DNA of 64,000 nt, from contig JAFSVU010000054.1 of assembly GCA_017444825.1 (NCBI GenBank), positions 1-64,000 of the forward strand. The letters are read 5' to 3'. Source of the stretch: Clostridia bacterium. Lineage in GTDB: Bacteria > Bacillota > Clostridia > UBA1212. Made by a program: the position numbers and the translations under genes. Of the stretch, positions 10,584 through 35,799 are shown piece by piece (positions within the stretch are counted from its first letter, which is position 1; each line of letters opens with the position of its first letter). Below the pieces are notes generated by a model. It saw nothing but the letters and a program-made list of their open reading frames with translations. It did no database searches and was not told the origin of the DNA.

Positions 10584-12005
10584 CTAAGGAATCATATGCA
10601 GCTTGATCATATTGGTATTCCTGGCCTCCCTGACCGGCACGCCCGCGGTCACAACTATAAGGTCGCCGCTCTTTGCGAAGCCGTTTTTCACGGAGCACTC
10701 GGCGGCCGCTTCAAACAGTGAGTCGGAGTGGCTCTGGACGTATTCCAGTACCGGGAAGACGCCCCAACTGAGTGCCAGCTGGTGGTAGGTCTTTACCTCC
10801 GGGGTGGGGGCGATGATGGGCTGCTTCGGGCGGAAGCTGGACACGCCGCGGGAGGTGCGTCCTGATATTGAGAAGGCCACGATGGCGGCGGCGCTGAGGT
10901 CATTGGCCATTGTCACTGCCGCGTCGCAGATGGCGAGCAGGGGCTTTTCGCGGGCCTCCCGGCTGGCAGTCTCAACGTAGGGATCCACGTATTCGGCGTC
11001 TTTTTCAGCCTGAACGGCAATGCTGGCCATGGTCTTTACCACGAGAGGCGGATGCTTGCCCATGGCGGTCTCACCTGAGAGCATTATGGCTGAGGTGCCG
11101 TCGAAGACTGCATTGGCCACGTCGGTGATCTCGGCTCTGGTGGGCGTTGTGTTATCGATCATTGACTCCAGCATCTGGGTAGCTGTTATGGACATCTTTC
11201 CGGAGCCGCATGTTTTGCGGATGAATGTCTTCTGAAGGCCGGGAATCAGGGCAAAGTCGATCTCGACTCCCATGTCGCCGCGGGCCACCATGATGCCGTC
11301 GGAGGCCTCGAGAATGTCGTCGAAGTTTTTAACACCTGCCGCGTTTTCGATCTTCGAGATGATGCGGATCTTTTCGCCGCCGTTTTCGGCAAGGAACTTA
11401 CGCATGGTGTCCACATCGTCCCTGTCGCTAACGAAGGATGCGGCTACGAAATCCACGTCCTCGCGGATGCCGAAGATCAGGTCGTTTTTGTCGGACTCGC
11501 TGAGGAAGGGCATATCGATCTTAATGTTGGGAACGTTGACGCCCTTGTGATTGCTTACGGTGCCTCCCGTGACTATGAGGCATTTTACGTCGGTGGCATT
11601 GGTTTCTTCCACCTTGAGAACGACCAGACCGTCGTCAATGAGTATCGTATCGCCGGGCTTTACGCAGGCCGGAAGGGTCTTGACAGTCACTGAAACGATA
11701 TTTTCGTCACCTTCAACGTCATTGGTGGTGATGGTGAAATGATCCCCGGTTTTTATCTCAACGGACGTATTTTTGAAGTTCCCGAGCCTTATTTCGGGGC
11801 CCTTCGTATCCAGCAGTATCGCAAGGGGAACACCCATTTCCCTGCGAAGCTTTTTGAGCTTTGCTATGAGCGAATGGAAATTATCGTAAGTGCCGTGGGA
11901 AAAGTTCAGCCTCGCCACGTTCATGCCGTTTGTGATCATCTCGCGCAGCACGTTTTCGTCGGAACTTGCAGGTCCTATAGTGCAGACAATTTTGGTTTTT
12001 CTCAT
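10584..12005 (-). CDS. pyk: Pyruvate kinase
   Basis: Converts phosphoenolpyruvate and ADP to pyruvate and ATP. The start is placed at 12005 (MRKTKIVCTIGPAS), with AAGGAGG upstream, giving 473 residues; upstream codons in the same frame do not match the family. Visible motifs: NFSHG near residue 35, LDTKGPEIR, DFVAASFVSD, SKIEN with the catalytic lysine, MVARGDMG and SGETAMG. It lacks the extra C-terminal PEP-utiliser domain of Bacillus pyruvate kinase. It is read as its own unit, because a terminator lies between it and the upstream XRE gene. Confidence 0.96.
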   Translation of the reverse strand: MRKTKIVCTIGPASSDENVLREMITNGMNVARLNFSHGTYDNFHSLIAKLKKLRREMGVPLAILLDTKGPEIRLGNFKNTSVEIKTGDHFTITTNDVEGDENIVSVTVKTLPACVKPGDTILIDDGLVVLKVEETNATDVKCLIVTGGTVSNHKGVNVPNIKIDMPFLSESDKNDLIFGIREDVDFVAASFVSDRDDVDTMRKFLAENGGEKIRIISKIENAAGVKNFDDILEASDGIMVARGDMGVEIDFALIPGLQKTFIRKTCGSGKMSITATQMLESMIDNTTPTRAEITDVANAVFDGTSAIMLSGETAMGKHPPLVVKTMASIAVQAEKDAEYVDPYVETASREAREKPLLAICDAAVTMANDLSAAAIVAFSISGRTSRGVSSFRPKQPIIAPTPEVKTYHQLALSWGVFPVLEYVQSHSDSLFEAAAECSVKNGFAKSGDLIVVTAGVPVREARNTNMIKLHMIP

Positions 12006-12082
12006 GTTTTTAGCCTCCTTCCGGAAAAAGCCCGTTTCAATAGAGTTTATCATAATAATGGTCCAACGGCAAGGATAATAAC

Positions 12083-12109
12083 AAAAAAAGGAGCTGCGAC
12101 GCTCCCTTT
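12083..12109 (-). terminator. Intrinsic terminator of the XRE gene
   Basis: On the minus strand AAAGGGAGC pairs with GCTCCTTT, followed by T7; it separates the regulator from pyk. Confidence 0.8.
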
Positions 12110-12152
12110 CCAAACTGCTTTACGGCACCGGCAGGCGGCCGCAAAGGATCAT

Positions 12153-12518
12153 TTATTTTGTGATGTTTTCCCAGAAGATCTCGTGGATCGAGCGGAAGAT
12201 GGCTGATTTTTCCTCCTTGGTCAGTTCGTCGGAAGAGAAAACTATCTTTGACAGAGAGAGAAGGTTATCGGATGCGGAGACGTCACCTGTAGGTGAGACT
12301 GACTCAAGGGCGTTGAGCTCGTTTTCATTTCTCAAATAGTTGGGGTCTGTCATGAGGATCTCGGCAAGGACAATATATATCTCACGGTTCTGTGGATAGG
12401 TGTGCCCTTTTTCGTAATTACTTATGGTGTTGATCCCCAGGCCCGCTCTTTGGGCAAGCTCAAGCTGGCTCATTTTCAATGCTTTACGACGCTTCCTGAG
12501 TTTTTCTCCGAATAACAT
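12153..12518 (-). CDS. XRE-family transcription regulator
   Basis: A 121-residue protein. Residues 5-60 form a Cro/C1-type helix-turn-helix (LRKRRKALKMSQLELAQRAGLGINTISNYEKG). The remaining ~60 residues are an uncharacterised helical tail, probably for dimerisation. Ribosome site GGAGATT. It is divergent from the secreted glycosidase-like gene at 12991, and the shared intergenic region carries five TTTGTGAA half-sites, so it is the natural candidate to bind them; this is inference from position. Confidence 0.88.
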   Translation of the reverse strand: MLFGEKLRKRRKALKMSQLELAQRAGLGINTISNYEKGHTYPQNREIYIVLAEILMTDPNYLRNENELNALESVSPTGDVSASDNLLSLSKIVFSSDELTKEEKSAIFRSIHEIFWENITK

Positions 12519-12573
12519 TTAATAATCTCCTCGTCACTATGTTAGAAACAGAACGCCTGTGCAGACGATTGGA

Positions 12574-12598
12574 AAACAAACCTTTTTATGGTTTGTTT
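12574..12598 (-). promoter_or_regulatory. Hairpin in the leader of the XRE mRNA
   Basis: AAACAAACC and GGTTTGTTT form a perfect 9-bp stem; on the minus strand it is followed by TTTT, so it may act as an attenuator within the regulator's leader. Confidence 0.5.
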
Positions 12599-12646
12599 GG
12601 GTGATACAAAACCGCTTGTATTAAGATCCAAAGACGGCCTCTTTTA

Positions 12647-12675
12647 ATCTTAACACTCATTATGATAGCTGTCAA
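12647..12675 (-). promoter_or_regulatory. Sigma-A promoter of the XRE gene
   Basis: On the minus strand TTGACA (12675-12670), 17-nt spacer, TAAGAT (12652-12647). Confidence 0.65.
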
Positions 12676-12788
12676 TAGTTATTACATTTGTTTTCCGCTT
12701 GTTTTAGTTGGATTTAATATTTTAATGTTGAGAAAATCGCAAATATAATGAATATTTGAATAATATGCGAAAATATAATCTAAAATGA

Positions 12789-12891
12789 TTTGTGAATTTA
12801 ACGCGCTGATTATTGCTAATTCACAAACTTATTGGGTACTATTTTGAGAATTTTGTGAATTACATGCATAAGTTCACAAACTGTTTGTGAA
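12789..12891. promoter_or_regulatory. Array of TTTGTGAA/TTCACAAA operator half-sites
   Basis: Half-sites lie at 12789-12796 (+), 12820-12827 (-), 12852-12859 (+), 12873-12880 (-) and 12884-12891 (+). The last two form a perfect 19-bp palindrome, TTCACAAACTGTTTGTGAA. Sites at 12789, 12820, 12852 and 12884 are 31-32 bp apart, close to three helical turns. The palindrome sits just upstream of the -35 box of the promoter at 12904. Confidence 0.75.
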
Positions 12892-12903
12892 TACGCTATT
12901 TTG

Positions 12904-12932
12904 TTGACTTGAGGGTGACAAACCAATATAAT
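12904..12932 (+). promoter_or_regulatory. Sigma-A promoter of the GH71/99-like gene
   Basis: TTGACT (12904-12909), 17-nt spacer, TATAAT (12927-12932), 59 nt before the start codon. Confidence 0.82.
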
Positions 12933-12990
12933 CAATCTGACCTTATAGCGCATTTTTGAGGCGCTGATCTTGATATTCCGGAGGCTTAAA

Positions 12991-15775
12991 ATGAGACTTA
13001 TACTGAAGAAATTCTGTATGTTGGTTATTGTTGCGGCGGTCATTGCCGCGTACGTGCCCATTGGTTATGTGGCGGCGGAGGGCGATGAGATCGTTTGCGG
13101 GACGACGATCCCCGAATTTTTGTATGATTTTACCGCGGGAGATTTTCAAAGCATCAGCTCTGTTACAAATCTGACTGCCGAGGAGACCGAAAACGGTGTG
13201 CTTCTTACTGCTCTTACGGATGACCCGGTGACGCAGCTTGACCTGCCGGAGGGGAAATGTAAGGACCTGGCGTATATGTCGGTGATGTTCAGATCGAATT
13301 TTAAGATCGAAAAGCGCTACGCGGAGATATACTACGCGACGGCCACCAGGAGCATCGAGGAGAAAACGAAGAACAACTGGATCTGGGAGAAGTCGTCGGG
13401 TGACTGGGTGACTCAGACGGTGAAGCTTTCGAAATGGCTTGATATAGACGAGGAGCTTACGACCTTCAGGTTTGACCCCATTGCTTCAAACTCACAGGTG
13501 GATGTGGAAGAGGGGGAGAGCATCGAGATCGGCTACATTGGTTTTTTCGCAAATCAGGCGGACGCGGATGCTTTTGACATAACCAAATACAGGGAATACA
13601 TCGAGGCTATGAACAATAAAGGAAAAGATGAGGGCTTTGGAAAGCCGGAGTATAAAGAGATCAAGGCCATTGCCGCTGACAATGCGGAGGGTACGCTGAA
13701 GATATCAGCTCCAAAGGATGGCAGCTACGAAATGTCCTACGTTCTCAACGGAAAAGAGGTCAAATATACTCTCCCCGACAGTAATTTCTACAGAAACGGG
13801 CCTCTTGCGGGAACAGACGACCTGGGGAGGACTTTGAATAACCAATACAGCGTGGTCAAGCCGGACTACACCTCCCACGACAGCGAAGGAAACCTGATCA
13901 GAAACGAGGTCAGCGAGAGAACTGTGGGAGTTTACGGCGAAAACGGTGAGCACTACGTGGGCATCTTCTATTTCCTGTGGCTCGGTCAGAACAGCATCAG
14001 AAAGTCGATGAATATCGAGGAGATCGTGGCCATGTACGGCGAGCAGGCGAAGGACGCGACCCTTAAGGAGTGGGGAAACGTATACGACGTGTTTTTCTTT
14101 GCGGAGCCTCTCTACGGGTACTACAGCTCGACCGACGAGTGGGTCGTGCGCAAACACATGGAGCTCCTGACCAATGCGGGCATCGACTTCCTTTACTTCG
14201 ACACCACCAACAACTATATCTACAGCGACGTAGTTAAGATCATCCAGAAGGTCTGCCACGAGATGAACGAGCAGGGCCTCAAGGCGCCGAAGATCGTTTT
14301 CTACACACACACCGACGCCAAGACCCGTGTAAAGCAGATCTACACTTCCATCTACAAAAAGGGCGAGTATACGGACACCTGGCTGTACCTTGACGGAAAG
14401 CCTCTTATAATCGCTCCACAGGACGCCAATGTTGACGGTTTCTTTACGATCAGGGAGCCCCAGTGGCCCAACGAGCCCAAGCAGGACAACACCTGGCCCT
14501 GGATAGATTGGCAATGGCCTCAGGAGCTTTACGGTCCCGCAGACGATCAGCTTGAGGCGATCAGCGTATCGGTGGCCCAGCATAGCGGCAACGGTGAGTT
14601 CTCCACATCCGGCCTCTATGGCTACACCGGCAACAGGGGCAGATCCTACGACGGAACCAATGCGAACCTCACGGCCGACTCCTACAAGCTTGGTCTCAAC
14701 ATCCAGCGCCAATTCAATTTCGCCTACAACGCAGGCAGCAAGTACGTTCTTGTGACGGGCTGGAACGAGTGGATCGCGTCGAGGCAGGAGACGGTCAACA
14801 AAAAGACCCCGGTCCGGTTCATAGACACGTTCAATTACGAATACAGCCGCGACATCGAGATGTCAAAGGGCGGTTATTTCGACAACTACTACATGCAGCT
14901 GGCCTCCAACACGGCCATGATAAAAGGCGCGGTCCCGGGAGTGCTGAGAGACGACAGGCACCTCATTAACGTTACCGGCGACTTTAACCAATGGGACGCG
15001 GTGCCCCACACCTACACAGACGTGGCAGGTGACGCCATAGAGAGAAACTTCCGGGGCTCCATGGTAGGCAAAAGATATACCGACAGTTCGGCCCGCAACG
15101 ACATCGTGGCCATCAAGGTCACTAACGATGCCACCAACATTCATTTTTACGTCGAATGCGCCGGAGATATAGTGCCCGGCGAGGCGGGTTCCTCCTGGCT
15201 CCAGATACTCGTTGACGTCGATTCCGACGGGACGACGGGGTGCCTTGGTTATGATTATATAATCAATAACCGCGTGATCGACGGCCTCACCACTACCGTG
15301 GCGGCATACGGCGGGGCCCGGGGCGGGACGGACTGGAATTTCAAGGAGAAGATCAGCGTTCCATACAGGGTCGAAGGCAAAAAGTTCATGGTCAGCGTGC
15401 CCATGGAGGCTCTCGGCATCGAATATATAAACAAGATCAACCTTCAGTTCAAGGTCTGCGACAGCAATACCCTCTACACCACTTGCGAGCAGTTCTACAC
15501 CGAGGGTGACTGCGCTCCTCTCGGAAGGCCGAACTTTGTGTACAGCACGTATTTCCCGGGCGTCTCGGAGATAGAGCTCATAAAGGTGGTAAAAGCAGAG
15601 GAGAGGGCTTCAAAGCTTGAGAATGACGACTCGCTGGACGTGGCGGGCGTCGAAAAGCCCGAGACTCCGGAGCCTGCGGGAACCAAGGGCTGCGGCGGAT
15701 GCGGAGGCGCAGGAGGCGGGATCGCAGTCGCGGCCGCGGCTGCTGTGGCGGCTCTGTTAATGAGTAAGCGGCGGG

Positions 15776-21754: not shown

Positions 21755-23995
21755 GTGATCACACTTATCGAAAACGGCGTCTACTACGTGGACGGGACAA
21801 TACAGGAAAAAGGGCTTCCGGGGGAAAGTGCCCGCGAAGCGTCAAAGAAGACCATAGCTGCAGGCATATTGAAGGCCCATGACGAGGGCGACGGCGAGGG
21901 TCTGTTAAAGCTCAAATTCGACGCTCTTGCGTCTCACGATATAACTTACGTCGGTATCATCCAGACGGCCAGAGCCAGCGGGCTGGAAAAATTCCCGGTA
22001 CCTTACGTGCTTACCAACTGCCACAACAGCCTCTGCGCCGTGGGCGGTACAATAAATGAGGACGACCACGTTTTCGGTCTCTCCGCTGCGGTGAAGTACG
22101 GCGGCATATTCGTTCCTCCTCACCAGGCGGTCATCCACCAGTACATGCGGGAGATGATGAGCGGCTGCGGAAAGATGATCATCGGCTCTGACAGCCACAC
22201 AAGATACGGAGCTCTCGGAACAATGGCCGTGGGCGAGGGAGGCCCGGAGCTTGTAAAGCAGCTCCTGGGAAGGAAATATGAGATCAAAAAGCCGGACGTG
22301 GTATTGGTTTATCTCAAGGGAAAACCGGGCCGCGGAGCAGGTCCCCAGGATATAGCCCTTGCCATCATCGGAAAAGTGTTCAAGGCGGGTTTTGTGAAGA
22401 ACTGCGTCATGGAGTTTGCGGGCCCCGGGATCGCAAATCTTTCGGTGGATTACAGAAACGGTATCGACGTTATGACCACGGAGACCGCCTGCCTCAGCTC
22501 CATCTGGATGACGGACGAGAAGGTGAAGGATTACTACCGGATCCACGGCAGGGAGCAGGACTATAAAAAGCTGGAGCCCGGAAACGGCGCTTACTACGAC
22601 AAGGCCATAGTGGTGGATCTTGACAAGGCGGAGCCAATGATCGCGCTTCCTTTCCACCCGGGCAATGCCTACACGCTTAAGGATTTCATCGCGAGTGCCG
22701 CGGACCTTCTCAGAGAGACCGAAAAACGGGCGTATGACGTGGTGGGCGAGAAGGCAAAGCTGTTCCCTCTTACATCCAAGGTCAGAAACGGCAAGGTCAT
22801 GGTGGACCAGGGCGTCATCGCAGGCTGCTCGGGCGGCACCTACGAGAACATAACAAAGGCGTCTCACATCTTAAAAGGCGGTTCCACCGGCTCCGGAAGC
22901 TACACGTTAAACGTATACCCCGCCAGCCAGCCCGTGAACCTGGCCCTCATGAAGAACGGGGCCATCGCGGATCTTATGAGCGCAGGCGCAGCGGTGAAGA
23001 CCGCTTTCTGCGGACCCTGCTTCGGCGCAGGCGACGTTCCTTCGAACAACGCCTTCTCCATAAGGCACACCACCAGAAACTTCCCCAACAGAGAGGGCTC
23101 GAGACCTCAGGACGGACAGCTTTCCTGGGTGGCGCTTATGGATGCGATGTCAATTGCCGCGACCTCTGCGGCGGGCGGTGTGCTCACATCTGCTGCTGAC
23201 GTTGATTTTGACGACAGTGTTCCCGCTTATCAGTTCGATGACTCAAGCTACAGGGCAAGGGTGTTTAACGGTTTCGGCAAAGCCGAGAAAAAAGCCGATC
23301 TGGTATTCGGCCCCAATATCACCGACTGGCCCAAGATCCCCGCTCTTGAGGAAAACCTGCTGCTTTCGGTGGCATCCGTTATCTCCGACGAGGTGACCAC
23401 CACCGACGAGCTCATCCCCAGCGGAGAGACCTCGTCCTACAGATCGAATCCTCTGAGACTGGCGGAGTTTGCCCTCTCAAGAAAGGACCCCGCATACGTG
23501 GCGGAGGCAAAGAGGGTGGCAAAAGCAAACGAACTGAAGCTGGAGGGCGCCTCCCCGGATATGTTTGACGGTATCGAAGGCGCAGACCCGTCGGATACGG
23601 CTGTTGCCAGCGTTGTCGTGGCCAAGAGACCCGGCGACGGCTCCGCAAGAGAACAGGCCGCTTCCTGCCAGAGAGTTCTCGGCGGCGGGGCGAACATTGC
23701 CCTTGCATACGCCACAAAGCGCTACAGAAGCAATCTCCTCAACTGGGGCATGCTCCCCTTCATCACCGACGACGAGTCGCTGTTTGAGGGCGGTCTCGAC
23801 AGGGGCGACCGCATATTCATAAAGGGAATAAAGGCCTGGGTAGAAAGCGGACAGGATGGAATAAAGGCCGAAATATACGGTAAAGAAGGCAAAAAGAAGA
23901 CTGTGACGCTGACCCTCGGGGACATCACCTCAAGCGAGCGGGAGGTGCTTCTCAAGGGCTGCCTCATGAACTACTACAAGAGTCAGAACAAATGA
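21755..23995 (+). CDS. Aconitase-superfamily hydratase (YbhJ-like)
   Basis: A 746-residue protein. GTG at 21755 with AAAGGCGG upstream fits the conserved N-terminus (VITLIENGVYYVDG). Aconitase features: IGSDSHTRYGALGTMAVGEGG, cluster cysteines in AGCSGGTYEN and CGPCFGAG, and a C-terminal swivel domain with SSYRSNPLRLAEFALSR and CQRVLGGGANIAL...RYRSNLLNWGMLPF. It is closer to the poorly characterised YbhJ hydratase branch than to the TCA aconitase AcnA, so the substrate is uncertain. A TATAAT at 21694-21699 may be its -10 box, with a poor -35. Confidence 0.82.
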   Translation: MITLIENGVYYVDGTIQEKGLPGESAREASKKTIAAGILKAHDEGDGEGLLKLKFDALASHDITYVGIIQTARASGLEKFPVPYVLTNCHNSLCAVGGTINEDDHVFGLSAAVKYGGIFVPPHQAVIHQYMREMMSGCGKMIIGSDSHTRYGALGTMAVGEGGPELVKQLLGRKYEIKKPDVVLVYLKGKPGRGAGPQDIALAIIGKVFKAGFVKNCVMEFAGPGIANLSVDYRNGIDVMTTETACLSSIWMTDEKVKDYYRIHGREQDYKKLEPGNGAYYDKAIVVDLDKAEPMIALPFHPGNAYTLKDFIASAADLLRETEKRAYDVVGEKAKLFPLTSKVRNGKVMVDQGVIAGCSGGTYENITKASHILKGGSTGSGSYTLNVYPASQPVNLALMKNGAIADLMSAGAAVKTAFCGPCFGAGDVPSNNAFSIRHTTRNFPNREGSRPQDGQLSWVALMDAMSIAATSAAGGVLTSAADVDFDDSVPAYQFDDSSYRARVFNGFGKAEKKADLVFGPNITDWPKIPALEENLLLSVASVISDEVTTTDELIPSGETSSYRSNPLRLAEFALSRKDPAYVAEAKRVAKANELKLEGASPDMFDGIEGADPSDTAVASVVVAKRPGDGSAREQAASCQRVLGGGANIALAYATKRYRSNLLNWGMLPFITDDESLFEGGLDRGDRIFIKGIKAWVESGQDGIKAEIYGKEGKKKTVTLTLGDITSSEREVLLKGCLMNYYKSQNK

Positions 23996-24033
23996 CCGGG
24001 ACCGGTCCAACAAGATATAAAGGAGATAACGAC

Positions 24034-24684
24034 ATGAAAAAAATTGCAAAAGCGGCGTCAATGATCCTTGCGGCGGTATTGGTTATTCTGTGCCTCGCCG
24101 GATGCGCCGGAAGCGGAGATGAATACAAAAACGCGCCGCTCCCGATAGTTACCATCGTGGTCAAGGATTACGGAACCTTGACGGCGGAGCTTTACCCTGC
24201 CATCGCTCCGGAGACTGTCAAGAACTTTATCAGCTTGGCAAACAGCGGCTTCTACAACGGTCTCACCTTCCACCGCGTGATAAGCGGCTTCATGATCCAG
24301 GGCGGCGATCCCAAGGGCAACGGTGGTGGCGGTCCCGGCTACTGCATAAAGGGAGAGTACGAAGCAAACGGCTTTAAGAACGAGCTAAAGCACACAAAAG
24401 GTGTCCTTTCCATGGCCAGAAAATCAAATCCTTACGTAAAACCCGACCCCTACATGGACAGTGCGGGCTCCCAGTTCTTTATCATGCAGGCGACGGCGAC
24501 CCACCTCGACGGAAGCTATGCGGCCTTCGGGAAGGTCATTGACGGACTTGAAATAATCGACACCATCGCGGGACTCCCCACCGATTCGAACGACAAACCG
24601 AGGGTGACCGTTACCATCGAATCCATAACCGTTGACACAAAGGGAATCACGTACGGCGAGCCCAAAAAGCTTCCCGAAATCTGA
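24034..24684 (+). CDS. Exported cyclophilin-type peptidyl-prolyl isomerase (lipoprotein)
   Basis: A 216-residue PPIase. ATG 24034 is set by AAGGAGA. The signal peptide ends in L-A-G-C, so it should fold proteins outside the membrane. Cyclophilin core: TVKNFISLA, FHRVISGFMIQGGDPKGNGGGGPGY, AGSQFFIM and YAAFGKVI. Compared with its neighbour it has an insert, NPYVKPDPYMDS, before the AGSQFF motif. Terminal GEPKKLPEI. The second PPIase starts 19 nt after it. Confidence 0.92.
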   Translation: MKKIAKAASMILAAVLVILCLAGCAGSGDEYKNAPLPIVTIVVKDYGTLTAELYPAIAPETVKNFISLANSGFYNGLTFHRVISGFMIQGGDPKGNGGGGPGYCIKGEYEANGFKNELKHTKGVLSMARKSNPYVKPDPYMDSAGSQFFIMQATATHLDGSYAAFGKVIDGLEIIDTIAGLPTDSNDKPRVTVTIESITVDTKGITYGEPKKLPEI

Positions 24685-24703
24685 TATCAAAAAGGAGAAA
24701 CCA

Positions 24704-25219
24704 ATGAACCCGACAGTAACACTTGCAATAAAAGACCTGGGAACCGTCAAGATAGAGCTTATGCCCGACATCGCCCCGAATACAGTGAAGAATTTCATCT
24801 CCCTTGTTAACAAGGGCTTCTACGACGGCCTCAGATTCCACCGCGTGATCAGCGGCTTCATGATACAGGGCGGCGACCCCAAGGGCAACGGCACAGGCGG
24901 CCCGGGCTATTCCATCAAGGGCGAGTTCTCCTCCAACGGCTTCGCGAACAGCCTCAAGCACGAGCGCGGCGTCATCTCGATGGCGAGGGCCATGAACCCC
25001 AATTCCGCAGGCTCCCAGTTCTTCATCATGCACAAGGACTCACCCCATCTTGACAGGCAGTACGCGGCTTTCGGCAAGGTCACAGAGGGCATCGAAGTGG
25101 TGGACAAGATCGCTGCGACGCCAACAGACTACTACGACGCGCCTCTTAAGCCTGTGATAATCGAAAAAGCCGTATGCGATACCTTCGGCGTGGAATACGG
25201 CGAGCCGGAGAAGGTCTGA
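24704..25219 (+). CDS. Cytosolic cyclophilin-type peptidyl-prolyl isomerase
   Basis: A 171-residue PPIase without a signal peptide; ATG 24704 follows AAAGGAGA. The core is nearly the same as that of the preceding lipoprotein (FHRVISGFMIQGGDPKGNG, AGSQFFIM, YAAFGKV), and both end in YGEP-K/E, so the pair arose by tandem duplication with gain or loss of the export signal. Confidence 0.93.
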   Translation: MNPTVTLAIKDLGTVKIELMPDIAPNTVKNFISLVNKGFYDGLRFHRVISGFMIQGGDPKGNGTGGPGYSIKGEFSSNGFANSLKHERGVISMARAMNPNSAGSQFFIMHKDSPHLDRQYAAFGKVTEGIEVVDKIAATPTDYYDAPLKPVIIEKAVCDTFGVEYGEPEKV

Positions 25220-26216: not shown

Positions 26217-26267
26217 TAGATTGCCGGGTATGCCCGCAAGGGCTTGATTAATTTAGGAGGAACTGTT

Positions 26268-26543
26268 ATGCCTTACGCAAAAAAAGAAGGTAAAGGTGCC
26301 GATAAATACGAGGGTAAGGGCCAGATGAGCAAGAAACCCAGAAAAAAGGTTTGCCGTTTCTGCGCCGATAAGACCGAGCATATCGATTACAAGGAATTCC
26401 AGAAACTCAGGAACTTTGTTACTGAGAGAGGTAAGATCCTTCCGAGAAGAATGACCGGAACCTGCGCTAAGCACCAGAGAGAGCTGACAACAGCTGTCAA
26501 GAGAGCCAGACACGTTGCGTTGCTGCCGTTTACAGCAGAGTGA
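26268..26543 (+). CDS. rpsR: Ribosomal protein bS18
   Basis: A 91-residue protein; ATG 26268 follows AGGAGG. The VCRFCADK...[19 protein letters not shown] core and [12 protein letters not shown] are diagnostic. Three cysteines (C-x2-C plus TGTC) suggest the zinc-binding form. Last gene of the operon. Confidence 0.97.
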
Positions 26544-26567
26544 TGTAAAGCTCATGTAACAATAGCT

Positions 26568-26606
26568 AAAAGAGAGATCACAGTGATTTATGGTCTCTCT
26601 TTTTTA
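26568..26606 (+). terminator. Intrinsic terminator of rpsF-ssb-rpsR
   Basis: AAAGAGAGATCA pairs with TGGTCTCTCTTT, followed by a T6 run. Confidence 0.88.
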
Positions 26607-26693
26607 TGCTACTGCGATGGGCTACTATTGCTACATAAATCAATAACACTTTGAAACTTTCACGTCCAAAACAAAAAGCTCAGCTAAGGGCCC

Positions 26694-27704
26694 CTAAACT
26701 TTTTTTTCGCGGGTTTCAGCGATTTCTGAGGGCGCCATGTTTTCCTTCTTCTTTTTCTTTATCACCGTCAGGACCACAACGACCGCCGCGGCTGTGAACA
26801 GGAATATACCCCCGCTCAGATAATACGGCCAAATCACAGGTTTGACGAACGCGTCCGGGAAATGTGTTTTAAAATCATCAATATTTACGCCGAAATAAAG
26901 CTCGATATTTGAATAATCTCCGGTCGCGGGGTGAAATTCAGTTGCGACAGTCTCTGTCATTTCGGATGATATTCCGCCGTCTCCATCATTTTCAATAAAC
27001 TCTTTGATCATGTCAACTGCGCGTTCAAGCTCTTCCCCGACCCGGATTATTCTTTTGCCGTTTGTAACATTTACATCCCAGATAGTATTCATAATCAAAT
27101 AAAAGAATTCGTCATAATCATCTTTCACATAAAAACAGGTTCCAACATAAGATACATTGACAAGCCTAACAAAACGTGGATCTATGATTTCGCTTCTTCC
27201 GCTTTTTATCCTTATATCTTCCGCAAAATCAGCATAATTCAATGACATGAGCTCATCCGGATATTCTTCGTTGATTGTGTCTATTCCCTCCATTCCTTGC
27301 CTGATTGCTTTTCCGTTCTTTAACTCAACAACAAGAACCGCACTGTAGAAAGGTTGTGATCTTCCCATATATTGCAGATTTCGCAGGCTGACCGCATACG
27401 AATGTTCTCCGCCAGTTGTCACAGGAGAAAGAGCTATTGCGTCCCCGCATTTATATCCTTTCGCGGTTTCTTTGTCATACAAAATATAATAGTAAAACGG
27501 AGTAACAGAACCGGGAACAACACACTCTCTTTCAACATGCGGAAGTATATCAAGCACCGCTTCCTGCTCTTGTTTTGAAGCATAAACTGTCAGTGTCTTT
27601 TCACATTCCCCGTTCACACCAAAGGCAATAGTTGCTGATATTGAAACCACAACCAAAGCCAAACATAGCGAAGAAAAAAACAGTATTATCTTTTTCATAG
27701 CCAT
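26694..27704 (-). CDS. Membrane-anchored protein of unknown function, module copy 2
   Basis: A 336-residue protein with an N-terminal signal or anchor helix (1-28), an extracytoplasmic domain starting KTLTVYASKQEQEAVLDIL, and a C-terminal helix (~290-315) followed by K-K-K-K-K and a short cytosolic tail. It is a paralogue of the gene at 28058: the last ~85 residues are nearly identical, the rest clearly diverged. No family recognised. It lies 13 nt downstream of the peptidase remnant, as the intact copy does relative to its peptidase. Ribosome site GGAGAGG. Confidence 0.75.
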   Translation of the reverse strand: MAMKKIILFFSSLCLALVVVSISATIAFGVNGECEKTLTVYASKQEQEAVLDILPHVERECVVPGSVTPFYYYILYDKETAKGYKCGDAIALSPVTTGGEHSYAVSLRNLQYMGRSQPFYSAVLVVELKNGKAIRQGMEGIDTINEEYPDELMSLNYADFAEDIRIKSGRSEIIDPRFVRLVNVSYVGTCFYVKDDYDEFFYLIMNTIWDVNVTNGKRIIRVGEELERAVDMIKEFIENDGDGGISSEMTETVATEFHPATGDYSNIELYFGVNIDDFKTHFPDAFVKPVIWPYYLSGGIFLFTAAAVVVVLTVIKKKKKENMAPSEIAETREKKV

Positions 27705-27717
27705 ATCAATCCTCTCC

Positions 27718-28058
27718 CTAATTACAGATATAAAATTCGTTCATCTTAAACTCGAATCCCCGCAGGTTAACAAAACCGGACGAAAACAGTTGTTCTTCGG
27801 TTAACGCATATGGTTTACCGTTTGCAGGATTCCACAGAGTATAAAATGTTGTTCCTTCATCATAAGATTTGCCGGTCGCTACCATAGCATGGCCATACGA
27901 TTCATTGTTAATCTTTATCATCGCAGAAACATAGACATATCTTCCGTTGTCAAGTTCATTATTGAATGTGTTTATTAACGAAGGTGTCCAGCCCAGAAGA
28001 AAAACTTTTTGCCTGCCGGCATACTGCCCGTGATCAAAACAGACTGCCTGGAAACTGT
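27718..28058 (-). pseudogene. Remnant of the papain-like peptidase (C-terminal part only)
   Basis: The frame encodes VFLLGWTPSLINTFNNELDNGRYVYV, then the His region (YGHAMVATGK) and LWNPANG to a final FYICN, all matching the peptidase gene at 29063. The N-terminal half with the catalytic cysteine is gone; upstream the frame runs without a start codon into the end of the gene at 28058. A stretch of ~80 nt (27929-28009) matches 29273-29352 almost exactly. An internal ATG at 27921 could give a 67-residue product but is probably not used. Confidence 0.8.
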
Positions 28059-29047
28059 TACCTTCCTTCGATTTCAGCGATTTCTGAGGGCGCCATGTTT
28101 TTCTTCTTTTTCTTTATCACCGTCAGAACCACAACGACCGCCGCGGCTGAGAACAGGATTATACCCCCGCTCAGAAAATACGGCCAAATCACAGGTTTGA
28201 CGAACGCGTCCGGGAAATGAGTTTTAAAATCATCGATATTTACGCCAAAATAAAGCTCAATATTTGAATAATCTCCGGTCGCGGGGTGAAATTCAGCTGC
28301 GACAGTCTCTGTCATACCGGATGATGTTCCGCCGACTCCACTTCTGATGGATATTAATCTTTCTTTCTCAATAAACTCTTTGATCGTATCAACTGCGCGT
28401 TCGAGCTCTTCCCCGACCCGGATTATTCTTTTGCCGTTTGTTATATCCGTTTCTCCTATATCCCAGAAGAATTGGTAAAAGAATTCATCCTCACCGTCAT
28501 TTATGTAAAAGCACAGGCCTGCAGAAGGTATGTGAACAAGACGGACAAATTGCGGATCAATTAACTCAGTTTTACCGCTCTTGATTCTTATGTCCTCGGC
28601 CATAACAGAGTAGTTAACCCCTATGTTAACCTCCGGATGACACTGGAGTACATGTTCCTTTACAAGTCCGTTCTTAACACTGATATCCATAAGTCCGCTT
28701 TTATAATGCTCTCCGTAATATGTGAATTCTTTCAGAGTAACAAGGTACATATGTTCGCCGTTTATTACCGAGCTTTTTAACTCAATTTTATCTCCGGCTT
28801 TATAACCAACGTCCTTTGCACTGTTATATATGCTGAAAGTGTAGACGGGAGTGATTTCTTCTTGAATAACGTAATCCCTTAATGCCGACGGGATTGCCTC
28901 CATTATCGCTTCCTGCTCTTCTTTCGATGCATAAACTGTTAGGATCTTTTCACCATTTTCGGCAAAACTGATCAGAAAACAGCCTGATATAACTATGATC
29001 ATGATTACTAAGAAAGATAAAAAAAATGAACATTTATTTTTACGCAT
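28058..29047 (-). CDS. Membrane-anchored protein of unknown function, module copy 1
   Basis: A 329-residue paralogue of the gene at 26694. N-terminal hydrophobic segment with I-S-G-C22, which could be a lipobox or an uncleaved anchor; domain KILTVYASKEEQEAIMEAIP; conserved block DIRIKSGKTELIDPQFVRLVHI; C-terminal membrane helix and K-K-K-K-K tail. Starts 15 nt after the peptidase gene, so the two are likely one operon. The pairing of a secreted peptidase with a membrane protein could mean substrate, inhibitor or immunity partner; nothing in the sequence decides this. Confidence 0.75.
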   Translation of the reverse strand: MRKNKCSFFLSFLVIMIIVISGCFLISFAENGEKILTVYASKEEQEAIMEAIPSALRDYVIQEEITPVYTFSIYNSAKDVGYKAGDKIELKSSVINGEHMYLVTLKEFTYYGEHYKSGLMDISVKNGLVKEHVLQCHPEVNIGVNYSVMAEDIRIKSGKTELIDPQFVRLVHIPSAGLCFYINDGEDEFFYQFFWDIGETDITNGKRIIRVGEELERAVDTIKEFIEKERLISIRSGVGGTSSGMTETVAAEFHPATGDYSNIELYFGVNIDDFKTHFPDAFVKPVIWPYFLSGGIILFSAAAVVVVLTVIKKKKKNMAPSEIAEIEGR

Positions 29048-29062
29048 TTAACCTACTCTCTT

Positions 29063-29905
29063 TCAATTGCAAATATAAAAAACTTTTAATAACAGACTCA
29101 TCTCATTAAAAGGTATTCCATTGGATGAAAACAACTCACTTTGTGTAACATATACAGTTCTGCCGGATGCCGGGTTCCACAGGGCGTATTTTGTTGTCCC
29201 ATCCTCGTTTTTTTTGTCTGTTATCACCATTGCGTGGTAGTATGTGTCGCTGTTGCTTATCACTTCCATTGAGACATAGACATATCTTCCGTTGTCAAGT
29301 TCATTATTGAACGTGTTTATTAACGAAGGTGTCCAGCCCAGGAGAAAAACTTTTTCTTTCTTTTCTATGTTCATCGTGTTGTATGATGCTAACTGGAGCG
29401 CGGCAACCGTATCAGAAGAACTGCCCGACAAGTCCTCGTCAGTTCCTTTTATCAGATAAACAATGTAATGCTGTCCTGCGTCGGCGGTTTTTAAGGTGTT
29501 ATATTGTTCGCCGTAACACTTTATTGTTGCCCCTCCACCGACTGGCGTGTATTCGTGTAATCCGTCGTAATACCCCAGAATCATTACCCCTTCCGGCAAT
29601 GGGTTGTTTGATGCTGTATTTCCACCGTTATGTACCCCAACACGTTTGGCGGCTGCAGCCCAGCACCAGTGATCTTTGTTCTGTAGATCTGGATTTGGCA
29701 GACGCTCAACACGGGCGGTGAATTTGCTGTAATCAGAAGCTGTCGAGTTGAAGAACGCACGCATTTCGGATGTTCCTGCCTCTCTCGCAAACAGGCTTCC
29801 TGCGTTGTTTATTGTTGCGATATCGGTATTCGTTGAAATCCATGACGCGTTATGAACATTGCTTACGGTAAGTGTTTCAGAATACCTGCATGAAACTATT
29901 CCCAA
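29063..29905 (-). CDS. Papain-like (C39-type) cysteine peptidase, 5'-truncated
   Basis: About 280 codons. Residues ~8-65 resemble a bacterial Ig-like (Big2) domain; then comes a papain-fold peptidase with Q75...HWC81WAAA, H224 in YYHAMVI and N244 in LWNPAS, so Gln, Cys, His and Asn are all in place. There is no ATG: the frame opens after a TAA near 29943 and the first usable start is a TTG at 29905 without a good ribosome site. No signal peptide is present although the Ig-like domain implies export. The 5' end was probably lost, next to the end of the HD-GYP gene. Confidence 0.65.
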   Translation of the reverse strand: MGIVSCRYSETLTVSNVHNASWISTNTDIATINNAGSLFAREAGTSEMRAFFNSTASDYSKFTARVERLPNPDLQNKDHWCWAAAAKRVGVHNGGNTASNNPLPEGVMILGYYDGLHEYTPVGGGATIKCYGEQYNTLKTADAGQHYIVYLIKGTDEDLSGSSSDTVAALQLASYNTMNIEKKEKVFLLGWTPSLINTFNNELDNGRYVYVSMEVISNSDTYYHAMVITDKKNEDGTTKYALWNPASGRTVYVTQSELFSSNGIPFNEMSLLLKVFYICN

Positions 29906-29969
29906 ATCCGAAAGAAAAAAGAGGGCTCCGCGCTTTGCGTGTTATTGCCGGTAAAACTTATAAAAGCGT

Positions 29970-32900
29970 TCAGTCGTAGGCTTTCAGCTTGCCTTCCTCG
30001 ATCAGCTTGATCACCACGTCGGCGATCTCCGGGTCAAACTGGATGCCCTTGCATCTCTCGAATTCGGCCACGATCTTCTCCTTCGGGTAGGGCTCTTTGT
30101 AGACACGCTTTGTCGCCATGGCGTCGAAACAGTCTGCGCAGCAGATGATGCGGGCAATAAGCGGGATGTCCTCGCCTTTCAGTCCTTCGGGGTAGCCACC
30201 TCCGCCGTATTTCTCGTGGTGATACTTGGCGCCTTCCACAATGTTGGGGATAGTGGAGATGTCCTTCAGGATCTTTGAGCCCTTTGTGGTGTGGCTCTTC
30301 ATGATGTCAAACTCTTCGTCAGTGAGCCTGCCGGGCTTGTTGAGGATTGCGTCGGGGATGCCGATCTTTCCGATGTCGTGGAGAAGGGCGGTGTAGTAGA
30401 GGTTCTCGAGACTGTCGCCTTCCATGCCCATGGCTTCCGCGATGATCCTGGAGTAGCGTCCGACGCGTATGGAGTGGCCGTTGGTGTATGCGTCCTTGGC
30501 GTCAATGGTGCGGGCAATGGCCTCGATGGATTCAATGGTGATGCCCTTGAGCTCCGCCTCTCTTGCCTTGGCGTTTTTGGCCTTCTTGTGGATGATCAGG
30601 AAGTTGATGAGGAAGATGAGTAGAATGGCGACCAAACCCGTCACGATCCAGAACCAGGTCTGCTCGTAGATCTGCTTATCCTTGATGAGGACAATGTCGA
30701 TCTCGTTGCTGACAAGGCCGTTTGAGTCGATCACGTAAACGTGGAACGTGTGCCTGCCTCCGGAGATGTTCGTGTATGAGATGGTAAGATCGTCTGCGAT
30801 TTGAATGTAATCGCTGTCGACACCGTCAAGCTTGTAGCAAACCGTGTGGCCCTTGTTGGGCTTGAACTCGAGGATCGAAAGGTTGAATTCGATACGGGAG
30901 GCGTTCTTCTTAAGCTTGATCTCGTTCCCGTACATCTGGACGCTGTCAACGTTGACGCAGTTGACGGCGATCTTCGCGGGGATGTCCCGGTCCGTTGAAC
31001 CTGCGAAATCGTAGGCAAAAATACCGTCTGTAGTCTGAAAATAGTACCTGCAGGTCTCCTCGTCGTAATAACCCGATGTGTTGGCCTGAATGGGCCTGAG
31101 GCCGTTGGTGGCGTCGTAGAGATCGTAATTCACAAGCCTGCCGCTCGAGTCAAGATTTGAGGGGTCGAGAGAGTCGGTGATGTAGGCCTGGGTCTGGCTG
31201 GCTATAACGTACTTGTAGGACGTGTTCCCGCTGCCGTCCTTTACCTTAACTTTTGATATCTCCACGATGGAGCCCTTGACGTAGGGGATGGTGATCTCTC
31301 TGTTCACAGCCTCGCCGTCGATCACTTCTCTGCAGAAGAACCGCCCGTTCAGGTTGTAGTATACCTTGTCGCCGTCAATGAGGAACTTCAGCCTGTTGCC
31401 GCTCACCTGCTTCTCCGTGGAGATCTCTTCGGTGACCGTGAAGTCGTCGTTGATGGTAAATATTCCGGCGGTGTGGTTGAAGGCGACCTTTCCGTCTCCG
31501 GTCCTGCTTATGTAGATGGTGCTCTTGTCGGTGTGGTAGACCGAAATCTTGCTTCCGTCGAATCTGTAGACTCCGCCCGACTGGTAGCCCACGGCAAGGA
31601 ACCCGTCAAAAGCTCTCAAACATCTGACGTTGGTAAGGTCACCGCTTTGGTAGGTGTTCTCCTTGTCCTCTTTGAAACTGACGATATTCGCTTCATCGCC
31701 AAGGAAATCATTGTCGTATATCACCACGTCCCCGGTGCCCGGATCGTACTCCACAATGCCGAGGCCGTAGTCCGCAAAGTACAGTTTGCCGTTAAAGTAT
31801 TCCACGTCCCTGAAGTCGTAGGGCACGCTTCCGGGTTCAACACCTTTTTCGGCAAAATAGGACTGAATGCCCAGCATCACCGGGTTGTCGGTGCCGTCCG
31901 CCGGAACGATAGAGCCGCTTCTTATGTCAAACAGAACGAGGCCCGTCTTTCCGAGGCAGATGTAAAGGGTGTCGCCGCAGCGCTCGAGGGCGTAGACCGT
32001 TTTGCTCTTGCCCGCATATTTTTCGGAAGCCCACAGGACGTCGTCAAAGAGAAGGTCCATGAGGGCGTTCTTGGTTATGAGGGAGACGCCGGATGAGGAA
32101 ACGTTGTGGCTTGCGATCCAGAGGTTTCCTTCGTAGTCTACCATAAGGTCGACGATCTGGGTCTTGTTTTCCAGATTGTCCATCGTCGAGTATTCGCCGT
32201 TCTCGTATATGCAGTAAACGCCTTCCTTTTCGCACCCGACGAAAAGCAGTTTGTCGTTTTCCGAATACATGGCGCAGTTGACCTGGTCCGTGATCATCGG
32301 ATACTGAACGGAGGAAAGGGCATTGGCGTTAAGATCGTATCCCGTGATGCCGGATGTCGTGCAGATGAAAAGAGTATCGCCGAAGATATAGAGCTCCAGA
32401 ATGAACGGGTTGTCGAAGATCTTTACGTGTTTATCGCTGTAGACGCCGTCGCCGAGCTGGTACAGGAATCTGTTTCTTGAGGGATCTGCAACTGCTCTGT
32501 TTACGGTCAGGCCTTTGGTCTCCTCCACGAGCTCTGCGGAGCCGGTTTTAACGTCATATGTGAACAGACCGATATTGGTGCAGGTGTAGATGATGTCGTT
32601 GACCTTATCGTATTCAAGGTCGTAGCACTCGACGGTGACATTGTCCTTTTCGAGAGACTGCCTGACGGATTCAAACCCGAGGTCGATCACGGAAAATACG
32701 TTGTTTTGATACCGGAAAAGGTTGTTGTACGTCATGATGTAGAGGATGTTGTCCTTCTGAACAAGTCTCCTGACGTTTATGATATCGTATTCAACACCGT
32801 TTTCAACAAAGCTTTTGTATGAGACGAACTCATTTGCGTCGTATCTGGTCAGACCCGAGTACTGGGCGACCCACACAAAACCGTCGTCGGTCTGGCACAG

Positions 32901-33053
32901 GGCCTCGGCACCGGCAACGTCAATATCCACGACCTCTTCGGCTTTATCGATAAGGAATGAGGAGGCCGACACGCCAATGGAAGAAAACAGTGTACAGACT
33001 GCCAAAATCAAAGAGAAAAGCAGAGGAACTATTTTTTTCATTTTGTACTTCAT
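29970..33053 (-). CDS. Extracytoplasmic beta-propeller sensor with HD-GYP output
   Basis: A 1027-residue signalling protein. Residues 1-30 form a signal peptide; ~40-690 contain repeated propeller blades (e.g. TDDGFVWVAQYSGLTRYDAN, YNNLFRYQNN), as in two-component regulator propellers; ~700-785 resemble a Y_Y_Y domain (EFKPNKGHTVCYKLDG); one membrane helix lies at ~800-822; the C-terminal HD-GYP domain has H892-D893-IGKIGIPD, HHEKYGGGGYP (GYP at 953-955) and conserved metal ligands. HD-GYP enzymes hydrolyse c-di-GMP, so an external ligand likely controls c-di-GMP turnover. The usual histidine kinase output of this sensor type is replaced. Confidence 0.9.
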   Translation of the reverse strand: MKYKMKKIVPLLFSLILAVCTLFSSIGVSASSFLIDKAEEVVDIDVAGAEALCQTDDGFVWVAQYSGLTRYDANEFVSYKSFVENGVEYDIINVRRLVQKDNILYIMTYNNLFRYQNNVFSVIDLGFESVRQSLEKDNVTVECYDLEYDKVNDIIYTCTNIGLFTYDVKTGSAELVEETKGLTVNRAVADPSRNRFLYQLGDGVYSDKHVKIFDNPFILELYIFGDTLFICTTSGITGYDLNANALSSVQYPMITDQVNCAMYSENDKLLFVGCEKEGVYCIYENGEYSTMDNLENKTQIVDLMVDYEGNLWIASHNVSSSGVSLITKNALMDLLFDDVLWASEKYAGKSKTVYALERCGDTLYICLGKTGLVLFDIRSGSIVPADGTDNPVMLGIQSYFAEKGVEPGSVPYDFRDVEYFNGKLYFADYGLGIVEYDPGTGDVVIYDNDFLGDEANIVSFKEDKENTYQSGDLTNVRCLRAFDGFLAVGYQSGGVYRFDGSKISVYHTDKSTIYISRTGDGKVAFNHTAGIFTINDDFTVTEEISTEKQVSGNRLKFLIDGDKVYYNLNGRFFCREVIDGEAVNREITIPYVKGSIVEISKVKVKDGSGNTSYKYVIASQTQAYITDSLDPSNLDSSGRLVNYDLYDATNGLRPIQANTSGYYDEETCRYYFQTTDGIFAYDFAGSTDRDIPAKIAVNCVNVDSVQMYGNEIKLKKNASRIEFNLSILEFKPNKGHTVCYKLDGVDSDYIQIADDLTISYTNISGGRHTFHVYVIDSNGLVSNEIDIVLIKDKQIYEQTWFWIVTGLVAILLIFLINFLIIHKKAKNAKAREAELKGITIESIEAIARTIDAKDAYTNGHSIRVGRYSRIIAEAMGMEGDSLENLYYTALLHDIGKIGIPDAILNKPGRLTDEEFDIMKSHTTKGSKILKDISTIPNIVEGAKYHHEKYGGGGYPEGLKGEDIPLIARIICCADCFDAMATKRVYKEPYPKEKIVAEFERCKGIQFDPEIADVVIKLIEEGKLKAYD

Positions 33054-33222: not shown

Positions 33223-35799
33223 ATGAACAAGCGAATTGATGACGTTCGAAACGGACGTGAGGACAATTACCTGCTTCCATTTTACTGGCAGCACGGCGGC
33301 AATCAGTTTGAAAAGATACCGGAGCACATCGAGCGCATTTATCAGAGCGGCTGCAGGGCTTTCTGCGTTGAGTCAAGGACCCACAGTGATTTCTGCAAGG
33401 ACGACTGGTGGCACGATATGGAGATCATCATCAATGAAGCCAAAAAGCGGGGGATGAAGGTCTGGATATTCGACGACGACCACTATCCCACAGGACATGC
33501 GGCGGGGGCGGTGAAAGCTCACCCCGAGCTTAGACAGATCTTTCTTGCAGAGAAGCACGTGGACGTCATCGGGCCAGGGAAAAACATGCTCCTTTCCATC
33601 GAGCTTGAAAACGGTGAGAAGCTTCTCGGCGCATATGCATTTAAGAGGACGGGAAACGACGAGGAGTGCATTGGCGAGCCTCTTGATCTGAATTCCGGTG
33701 TCAGGGGAAAGTTCCTCAAATTTGACCTTCCCGAGGGCTGCTGGAGGGTGTTTTTCTACTATGAGACGACCCGTGCCTGCGTCAGGCCGGACTACATAGA
33801 TATGCTGAGAGAGGAGTCGGTGAAGCTCCTGGTGGACACGGTGTACGAACCTCACTATGCTCATTTTTCCGATGAATTCGGGAAAACCATTGCGGGCTTC
33901 TTCTCCGATGAGCCCTGTTTCGGGAACAACTGGATCGGACCCCACCACATCGATCTCGGGTATTACAACAGGCGTGTGGGCATGCCGGGACTGGGCCTTC
34001 CCTGGAGGGACGATATCCCTGAGATCATGGGCAGGGACATTGGCGTGGACGTGCTGCCGCTTCTTTCGGGCCTTTGGTATGACATCGGAGAAAAAACGCC
34101 AATGCTCCGCCACGCGTATATGGACACGGTCACGAAGCTTTACAGGGACTGCTTCACAAGGCAACTGGGCGACTGGTGCGAGGCCCACGGTGTACAGTAC
34201 ATCGGCCACATCATCGAGGATATGAACGCCCACGGAAGGCTGGTGGCCAGCGGAGGACACTATTTCAGGTCCCTTGACGGCCAGCATATGAGCGGCATCG
34301 ACATAGTGCTCCACCAGATCATCCCGGGTATGTACGACTACATCCACACCGGATGGGCCTTCGGAAGCTACCTTGACCCCGCATTCTTCGACGTGTCATT
34401 GGCGAAGCTGGGGGCGTCCCTTGCCCATGTGGGGACCCAGATGGAGGGCAGGGCCATGTGCGAGGTGTTCGGTGCATACGGCTGGGCCGAGGGAACGCCG
34501 ACCATGAAGTGGCTCATTGACTATCTGCTGGTCCGGGGGATCAACAGGTTTATTCCCCACGCTTTTTCACCGGATTTTCCCGACCCCGACTGCCCGCCTC
34601 ATTTCGGCGTGAACGGTCTGGATCCCCAGTTCGAGGGTTTTACAAAGATAATGAACTACACCAACAAGGCCGCTCATCTTTTCGAGGGTCTCACCCACAG
34701 GGCGGACGCAGCTGTCCTTTACCACGGGGACGCGGAGTGGATGAACTACGACGGCGGCGCTATGCTGACCGACGTGCCGGCAAAGATACTGTTTGACGAG
34801 CATATCGATTTTGACATAGTACCTGCGGACTGCTTCATTGACGGTACAGGAAGCCGTGTGTTCAAGGCATGCGCGAAGGACGGAAAGCTTGTCATAGGCC
34901 GTGAAACCTATTCGGTGCTGGTGATCCCGGCGGCGGTGCTTTTGCCGGAAAAACTCGAGAAAGCTCTTAAAGATCTCGAGAAAGAGGGCGTTCCTGTCAT
35001 CAGAATGGCCTTTGATACGAAACCGGAGGAACTTGTTTCGATGGTCGACAGGCACGTAAACCGCGACGTTGTCCTTAGGGACAGGCTTCCCAAGCTCCGG
35101 GCCATCCACTTTTACGGCGATTCTGAGGACGTTTATATGTTCGCCAATGAGTCTGTGACGGAGACCATTGATACTTTGGCGAGTCTGGCGTCGGTGAAGG
35201 AGAACACGGAGTGCGTGATCTTTGATATGCTGAACGACGAGACTGTAAGGCTGCCTGTAAGAAACGGTGAACTTCCGGTTAAACTGGAGCCCTATCAGTC
35301 GTTTATCGCGGTATTTGACAAAAAGGGTATCCCGGAGGACCTGCCGGAGTTTAAGGCATTTAATAAGTGCGGCGACGCCAATATAGTGTTTGACGTCGAA
35401 AAGGCGCCATACACGGATATGACCGCCTTCGAGCCCCTTGCAAAGGGTGTTCCTCCGGAAAAGCTTCAGGATGTGACCGCTTCCGACGACCTCATCGAGT
35501 TCTCGGGGAGATACAGGTACACGGGAAAATTCGTTTCCGATGAGACGGGCGGTGCGACCGGCATCGACCTTGGCGAGGCGGGCGTCACGACACATATGTG
35601 GCTTAACGGCGTCGACCTCGGTGTCAGGGTATGCAGACCCTACCGCTACGACATTTCTTCGGCACTTCGTGACGGAACCAACGAGCTGACCATTGAGGTC
35701 TCCAACACACTGGCCAATGCAGTCCGCGACCGCTTCTCCCAATACCTGGCGATCCCCGCCAGCGGCCTCATCGGGCCTCTTACCTGGTTTAAAAGATAA
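33223..35799 (+). CDS. GH106-like glycoside hydrolase (putative alpha-L-rhamnosidase family)
   Basis: An 858-residue cytosolic protein without signal peptide; ribosome site AAGGAG. The N-terminal barrel has features seen in large GH106-type proteins: VWIFDDDHYPTGHAAG, FFSDEP near residue 226, and HIIEDMNAHGR with a long region on to the MEG...FGAYGWAEG segment. The last ~100 residues form a GH2-like sugar-binding jelly roll (GIDLGEAGVTTHMWLNGVDLG, LTIEVSNTLANAVRD). Assignment rests on this architecture; the substrate is not established. The lipoprotein gene at 35838 follows after 38 nt. Confidence 0.75.
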   Translation: MNKRIDDVRNGREDNYLLPFYWQHGGNQFEKIPEHIERIYQSGCRAFCVESRTHSDFCKDDWWHDMEIIINEAKKRGMKVWIFDDDHYPTGHAAGAVKAHPELRQIFLAEKHVDVIGPGKNMLLSIELENGEKLLGAYAFKRTGNDEECIGEPLDLNSGVRGKFLKFDLPEGCWRVFFYYETTRACVRPDYIDMLREESVKLLVDTVYEPHYAHFSDEFGKTIAGFFSDEPCFGNNWIGPHHIDLGYYNRRVGMPGLGLPWRDDIPEIMGRDIGVDVLPLLSGLWYDIGEKTPMLRHAYMDTVTKLYRDCFTRQLGDWCEAHGVQYIGHIIEDMNAHGRLVASGGHYFRSLDGQHMSGIDIVLHQIIPGMYDYIHTGWAFGSYLDPAFFDVSLAKLGASLAHVGTQMEGRAMCEVFGAYGWAEGTPTMKWLIDYLLVRGINRFIPHAFSPDFPDPDCPPHFGVNGLDPQFEGFTKIMNYTNKAAHLFEGLTHRADAAVLYHGDAEWMNYDGGAMLTDVPAKILFDEHIDFDIVPADCFIDGTGSRVFKACAKDGKLVIGRETYSVLVIPAAVLLPEKLEKALKDLEKEGVPVIRMAFDTKPEELVSMVDRHVNRDVVLRDRLPKLRAIHFYGDSEDVYMFANESVTETIDTLASLASVKENTECVIFDMLNDETVRLPVRNGELPVKLEPYQSFIAVFDKKGIPEDLPEFKAFNKCGDANIVFDVEKAPYTDMTAFEPLAKGVPPEKLQDVTASDDLIEFSGRYRYTGKFVSDETGGATGIDLGEAGVTTHMWLNGVDLGVRVCRPYRYDISSALRDGTNELTIEVSNTLANAVRDRFSQYLAIPASGLIGPLTWFKR

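Follow-up and report, generated by a model that had tools for sequence, protein, structure and literature searches.

A gene cluster of a Clostridia bacterium, located in a 64,000-nucleotide stretch of DNA (here the window), may represent a decaying conflict locus, laterally acquired and restricted to one genus, in which a papain-like cysteine peptidase would have been paired with a cognate membrane-anchored immunity protein or inhibitor, and the enzyme would have been lost repeatedly. From sequence comparisons, the probability of this reading is put at about 0.42. The cluster consists of two broken peptidase genes, pep1 and pep2, and two full-length membrane protein genes, mem1 and mem2. All four elements are found at 26694-29905, on the minus strand and in the order pep1, mem1, pep2, mem2, as a preliminary description had placed them. 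They are codirectional, with gaps of 15 bp between pep1 and mem1 and 13 bp between pep2 and mem2, and are flanked by an HD-domain gene (29970-33053) and rpsR (26253-26543). The features are:

29063-29905, minus strand: pep1, papain-like cysteine peptidase, 5'-truncated; Gln75, Cys81, His224 and Asn244 present (assigned by motif and by Pfam matches below cut-off)
29741-29881, minus strand: remainder of a Big_2 (bacterial Ig-like) domain at the pep1 N-terminus (Pfam E 0.0032, profile positions 23-71 of 79)
28058-29047, minus strand: mem1, with hydrophobic N-terminus, ectodomain of ~250 aa, C-terminal transmembrane (TM) segment and KKKKK tail
27718-28056, minus strand: pep2 remnant, the C-lobe of a second peptidase, with His and Asn kept and the Cys half gone
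26694-27704, minus strand: mem2, laid out as mem1; ectodomain 43% and C-terminal part 81% identical to mem1
29271-29355, minus strand: 85-bp recombination-type patch in pep1, KVFLLGWTPSLINTFNNELDNGRYVYVS (repeat family D2, 96% identical to 27926-28010)
27926-28010, minus strand: 85-bp D2 patch in the pep2 remnant, near its 5' end
28101-28446, minus strand: homogenised C-terminal tract of mem1 (repeat families D1, 95%, and D3, 92%)
26746-27070, minus strand: homogenised C-terminal tract of mem2 (repeat families D1 and D3)
26560-29960, unstranded: approximate insert between rpsR and the HD-domain gene

The pep1 product carries the Cys in the motif HWCWAA, the His in YHAMV and the Asn in LWNPA, with the papain-like Gln-to-Cys spacing of 6, and its catalytic half looks complete. 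The Pfam matches of pep1 to Big_2, CEP76-peptidase and C70 are all under the curated cut-offs (Peptidase_C70 scores 12.8 bits, cut-off 19), and pep2 is likewise below with Peptidase_C39_2 (13.7 bits, cut-off 24); the designation papain-like thus rests on the residues and on several concordant weak matches. The preliminary description had pep1 lacking its 5' end and pep2 its Cys half, and both losses are borne out. No hydrophobic signal segment was found in pep1, its Big_2 match begins only at profile position 23, and the in-frame starts are limited to a TTG that lacks a ribosome-binding site and to one ATG within the Big_2 part. The pep2 remnant aligns only to pep1 residues ~169-280, with 51% identity (residues 180-280 alone give E 3.9e-33). 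Starting right at the mem1 stop codon (28058), the homologous frame stays free of stops for 113 codons and is longer than the 67-aa open reading frame listed for pep2. A single-chain structure model of the peptidase is poor (pLDDT 34.7) and unusable.

Do relatives carry further enzymes of this kind? Among 391 genomes of the class, a pep1-type peptidase is found only in the window genome. A search of the genus for the WCWAA pattern yielded nine matches, none of them a further papain-like peptidase: one is pep1, two are in long frames that do not resemble such an enzyme, and in six the WCWAA does not fall in a long frame.

The mem1 and mem2 genes are complete, as was also claimed for them at the outset; each has a start, an RBS-like sequence and a full frame. 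The mem proteins have 329-336 aa, and their hydrophobic N-terminus and C-terminal TM segment, followed by the lysine tail, predict an ectodomain outside the membrane, within reach of a secreted enzyme. The family finds no match in Pfam, NCBIfam or PADLOC, nor in any known inhibitor or immunity family; pep1 and four mem proteins are without a match to the anti-phage defence models of PADLOC, and neither Pfam nor NCBIfam yielded a named Tox domain or an immunity (Imm) family. The single-chain model of mem is weak (pLDDT 54.6), and a PDB fold search with it gave no match at E 0.001.

How did the cluster come to lie between the HD-domain gene and rpsR? In two congeners, G008 and G004, these genes are ~100 bp apart, the HD protein being 91% (G008) and 80% (G004) identical to the window copy, and the window genome therefore carries an insert of ~3.4 kb. 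Its approximate edges are placed where homology to these empty sites stops. The GC content of the insert is ~0.41, compared with 0.52 in the window as a whole, and it showed neither mobility genes nor inverted repeats. A phage or plasmid origin was rejected, as searches of viral contigs, phages and plasmids found no relatives. Promoter and terminator counts are within ~1 standard deviation of those in shuffled sequences, and hence uninformative.

Other features of the window include the HD protein itself (minus strand), which joins a Reg_prop/Y_Y_Y sensor part to a C-terminal HD_5 domain and shows no kinase match in Pfam, the layout of a hybrid sensor with an HD (c-di-GMP phosphodiesterase-like) output. 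By inspection, the tandem overlapping plus-strand genes at 23992-24684 and 24632-25219 encode cyclophilin-type peptidyl-prolyl isomerases, and the leader of the first resembles that of a lipoprotein. A second low-GC stretch (about 0.39-0.41) is present at 12001-13500. An 858-aa protein (33223-35799, plus strand), with no Pfam match at E 0.001, is 40% identical over ~600 aa to a GH106-like protein whose gene precedes the mem genes of another congener, G005.

The preliminary description saw a duplicated module. The two units are indeed a homologous pair, but not a recent copy. Between mem1 and mem2, the ectodomains share 43% identity and the silent sites there are saturated, whereas the C-terminal third is 81% identical in protein, and 92-97% in DNA over most of codons ~201-327. 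Similarly, the 85-bp peptidase patch is ~96% identical in DNA between pep1 and pep2, and the sequence is diverged on both sides of it. A recent tandem duplication is rejected, as the ectodomains are saturated and that of mem2 is nearer to the G005 copy (52%) than to mem1 (support in the ectodomain tree is low to moderate, at 49 and 77). Divergent ectodomains together with near-identical edges show instead that the two units are an old pair of separate lineages whose edges have undergone recombination or conversion. The divergent segment takes in both the C-lobe of the peptidase and the ectodomain of mem, and C-lobes and ectodomains are still homologous between the copies, at about 43-55%. That the two diverge as one segment suggests a functional pair.

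The mem family is present in four of the six genomes of the genus, i.e. the window's own genome (G000) and the congeners G004, G005 and G008. It is found in none of the 25 other genomes of the order and in none outside the genus among the 391 class genomes sampled, and a scan of GTDB species genomes shows it in two records only, with loci already within the genus set. A candidate on contig C10 of G004 matches only through a generic C-terminal TM anchor. The six copies comprise four complete genes (G000 mem1 and mem2, G005 mem1 and the G004 gene), G005 mem2, which is open up to the contig end, and the G008 gene, which is broken. The preliminary description looked to such homologues for a peptidase directly upstream; this is found at three of the six copies (pep1-mem1, pep2-mem2 and a relic before G005 mem2), but none of the three peptidase traces keeps a 5' end and none is intact. 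The G004 and G008 genes and G005 mem1 are without an adjacent or detectable peptidase. The G005 relic consists of the last 24 peptidase codons, ending in FYLCN, and the stop codon, and lies 17 bp before mem2 (L012:9182-9256); its score was reached by 0 of 300 shuffles. The order of mem, broken peptidase and mem is therefore present in two genomes, G000 and G005, which argues against the pep2 remnant being an assembly artefact, a point on which the preliminary description would have turned.

Genomic sites differ. The G005 mem genes sit behind the GH106-like gene, at a site other than that between the HD-domain gene and rpsR, and the G004 and G008 genes have a phosphoribosyltransferase gene on one side and, on the other, a gene that by inspection is glycyl-radical-enzyme-like. 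Another G005 contig starts with the end of a mem-like gene and leads into the S10 ribosomal operon. Contig C36 of G005 ends inside mem2, near the position where the tract starts in G000, and C39 opens with the last mem-like codons; a collapse of identical mem C-terminal tracts in this assembly is suggestive only, as the C36 end is not an exact mem1 repeat. A terminator-like stem-loop sequence of ~60 bp is present at L012:7854-7913 and L058:97-156 (88% identical), one copy behind the GH106-like gene and one behind the mem-like end on another G005 contig.

A tract of ~1.4 kb (L013:6012-7391 and its counterpart in L014), covering mem and the upstream region, is 98% identical overall between G004 and G008 (95-100%, apart from a deletion), and both flanks are ~82% identical. 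The dS between the two genomes is 0.02 for mem and 0.94 and 0.48 for the neighbours. Such a tract within flanks of this divergence indicates recent recombination between species, which carried mem without any peptidase. In the G008 copy, 505 bp are deleted between short direct repeats, GCATTGGCGA, which shifts the frame.

Several known systems invite comparison. Bacterial papain-like peptidases commonly have an inhibitor gene next to their own, and in Bacteroides thetaiotaomicron the BtpZ peptidase has lost its Cys while the neighbouring inhibitor BtiZ remained (PMC3462683). The staphopain-staphostatin (C47), SpeB-Spi and Bacteroides Bfp/Btp-Bfi/Bti (C10) pairs consist of a Cys peptidase and an adjacent second gene, as do the putative papain-like peptidase and mem here. 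Paralogous pairs can cluster in such operons (PMC3462683), also as here, and the present loci share the codirectional adjacent partner, with gaps of 15, 13 and, in G005, 17 bp. However, the Bti inhibitors are small (116-138 aa) and predicted to be mostly beta, whereas mem has ~330 aa and a C-terminal TM segment and shows no sequence match to them; it is also much larger than staphostatins and does not qualify as a small inhibitor of the staphostatin or Spi type. The orphan modules of CDI/Rhs loci (PMC3150448) are a second parallel: there, as with pep2-mem2, a start-less 3' fragment of an effector gene lies with its partner gene downstream of a longer copy, and the fragments begin near a conserved patch and then diverge, as pep2 does at its D2 patch. 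In CDI/Rhs, however, the upstream effector is full length with a CdiA/Rhs scaffold, whereas pep1 is truncated and has only Big_2 and peptidase parts; no CdiA/Rhs or other delivery scaffold is present between the flanking genes. The sequences behind the CDI/Rhs patch are unrelated, whereas the C-lobes and ectodomains here are homologous, and CDI/Rhs orphans are toxin/immunity modules, whereas the peptidase here is at most a putative toxin. Papain-like domains of polymorphic toxins (Tox-PL1, Tox-PLC39 and others; PMC3482391) resemble the locus in that the catalytic domain forms the C-terminal part of a protein predicted to be exported and is followed by a partner gene, but pep1 and mem match no named family of those systems. 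On these comparisons the locus fits neither the peptidase/inhibitor operons nor the CDI/Rhs orphans, as mem is large, membrane-anchored and unlike known inhibitors, and there are no CDI/Rhs scaffold and no unrelated toxin ends.

What might the ancestral locus have been? In the favoured reading, the gene of a secreted Big_2/papain-like cysteine peptidase would have lain ~15 bp upstream of that for a membrane-anchored surface protein, most likely the enzyme's cognate immunity protein or inhibitor. Secretion of the ancestral enzyme we infer, because an intact peptidase is found nowhere. On the outer face of the cytoplasmic membrane, mem would neutralise the peptidase made by the cell itself as well as by its neighbours. 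Different cassettes of peptidase C-lobe and mem ectodomain may then have met at one locus and had their edges homogenised by recombination, after which each copy of the peptidase, presumably costly to keep, was truncated at its 5' end and the mem genes remained. The sequences themselves establish the arrangement of the genes, their insertion, the mosaic, the repeated truncation of peptidases at the 5' end and the recent recombination between species that carried mem. That mem acts in inhibition or immunity, and that selection is the cause of its retention, we infer from the pattern of decay: the enzyme decays copy by copy, and its partner is usually kept, moves alone and has a divergent ectodomain facing outward. 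The preliminary description likewise had mem retained while the peptidases decay, and took this as what toxin-immunity or protease-inhibitor pairs would lead one to expect. The G005 relic and the absence of a peptidase at the G004/G008 site agree with such retention, but the peptidase-less G008 gene, broken by its deletion, indicates that mem is not always kept. The pattern accords with an immunity role and is not proof of it. The sample is small (six mem copies in four genomes), and three copies have no peptidase trace. Orphan surface genes can also persist beside decaying genes by chance.

The main rival, which is possible though on balance unlikely, is that mem is a variable surface protein in its own right, resembling an adhesin or antigen, and the peptidase an operon neighbour that degenerated by chance; mosaic and transfer would then reflect surface diversification rather than immunity. 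The solitary mem genes (those at the site common to G004 and G008, and the upstream one of G005), the divergent ectodomain with a homogenised anchor, the recent between-species tract and the absence of the family from most relatives are all in keeping with this, but it leaves aside that all three peptidase traces are directly upstream of mem, at 13-17 bp, and that C-lobe and ectodomain diverge together as a functional pair might. Could mem instead be a positive partner of the enzyme, i.e. a membrane anchor, an activator or a substrate such as a processed surface precursor? Adjacency, the co-varying segments and the predicted location of both proteins outside the cytoplasmic membrane would accord with it. 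This is nevertheless quite improbable, as a substrate or activator has no evident use after enzyme loss, yet mem was kept and transferred. The preliminary description held a substrate pair to be equally possible; the decay fits immunity or inhibition better.

A very unlikely alternative makes pep2 an orphan cassette as in CDI/Rhs, with the conserved patch letting C-lobe and mem recombine into the upstream gene. The 96% patch near the 5' end of the remnant with sharp divergence behind it, the 113 stop-free codons and the homogenised tract closing the other end have this appearance, and orphan cdiA-CT modules are also start-less and begin near a conserved motif (PMC3150448). However, with the upstream peptidase truncated, a swap yields no secreted enzyme. 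The cassettes are also homologous rather than unrelated, there is only one orphan, and ordinary gene conversion between paralogues accounts for the same tracts. A broader extension of the immunity reading is likewise doubtful: that the genes belong to an undescribed system of interbacterial antagonism in Gram-positive bacteria (Clostridia), where the C-lobe of a secreted Big_2/papain-like peptidase and the ectodomain of mem would be exchanged as a cassette and the immunity gene would also spread alone against the enzymes of neighbours.

If mem is an immunity protein or inhibitor, it would represent a membrane-anchored type of inhibitor for papain-like peptidases with no recognised relatives, and the DNA would document both how the effector disappeared and how the protective gene passed from species to species. 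Even without an immunity role, the locus documents within a short stretch how a surface-protein family specific to the genus has recombined and decayed.
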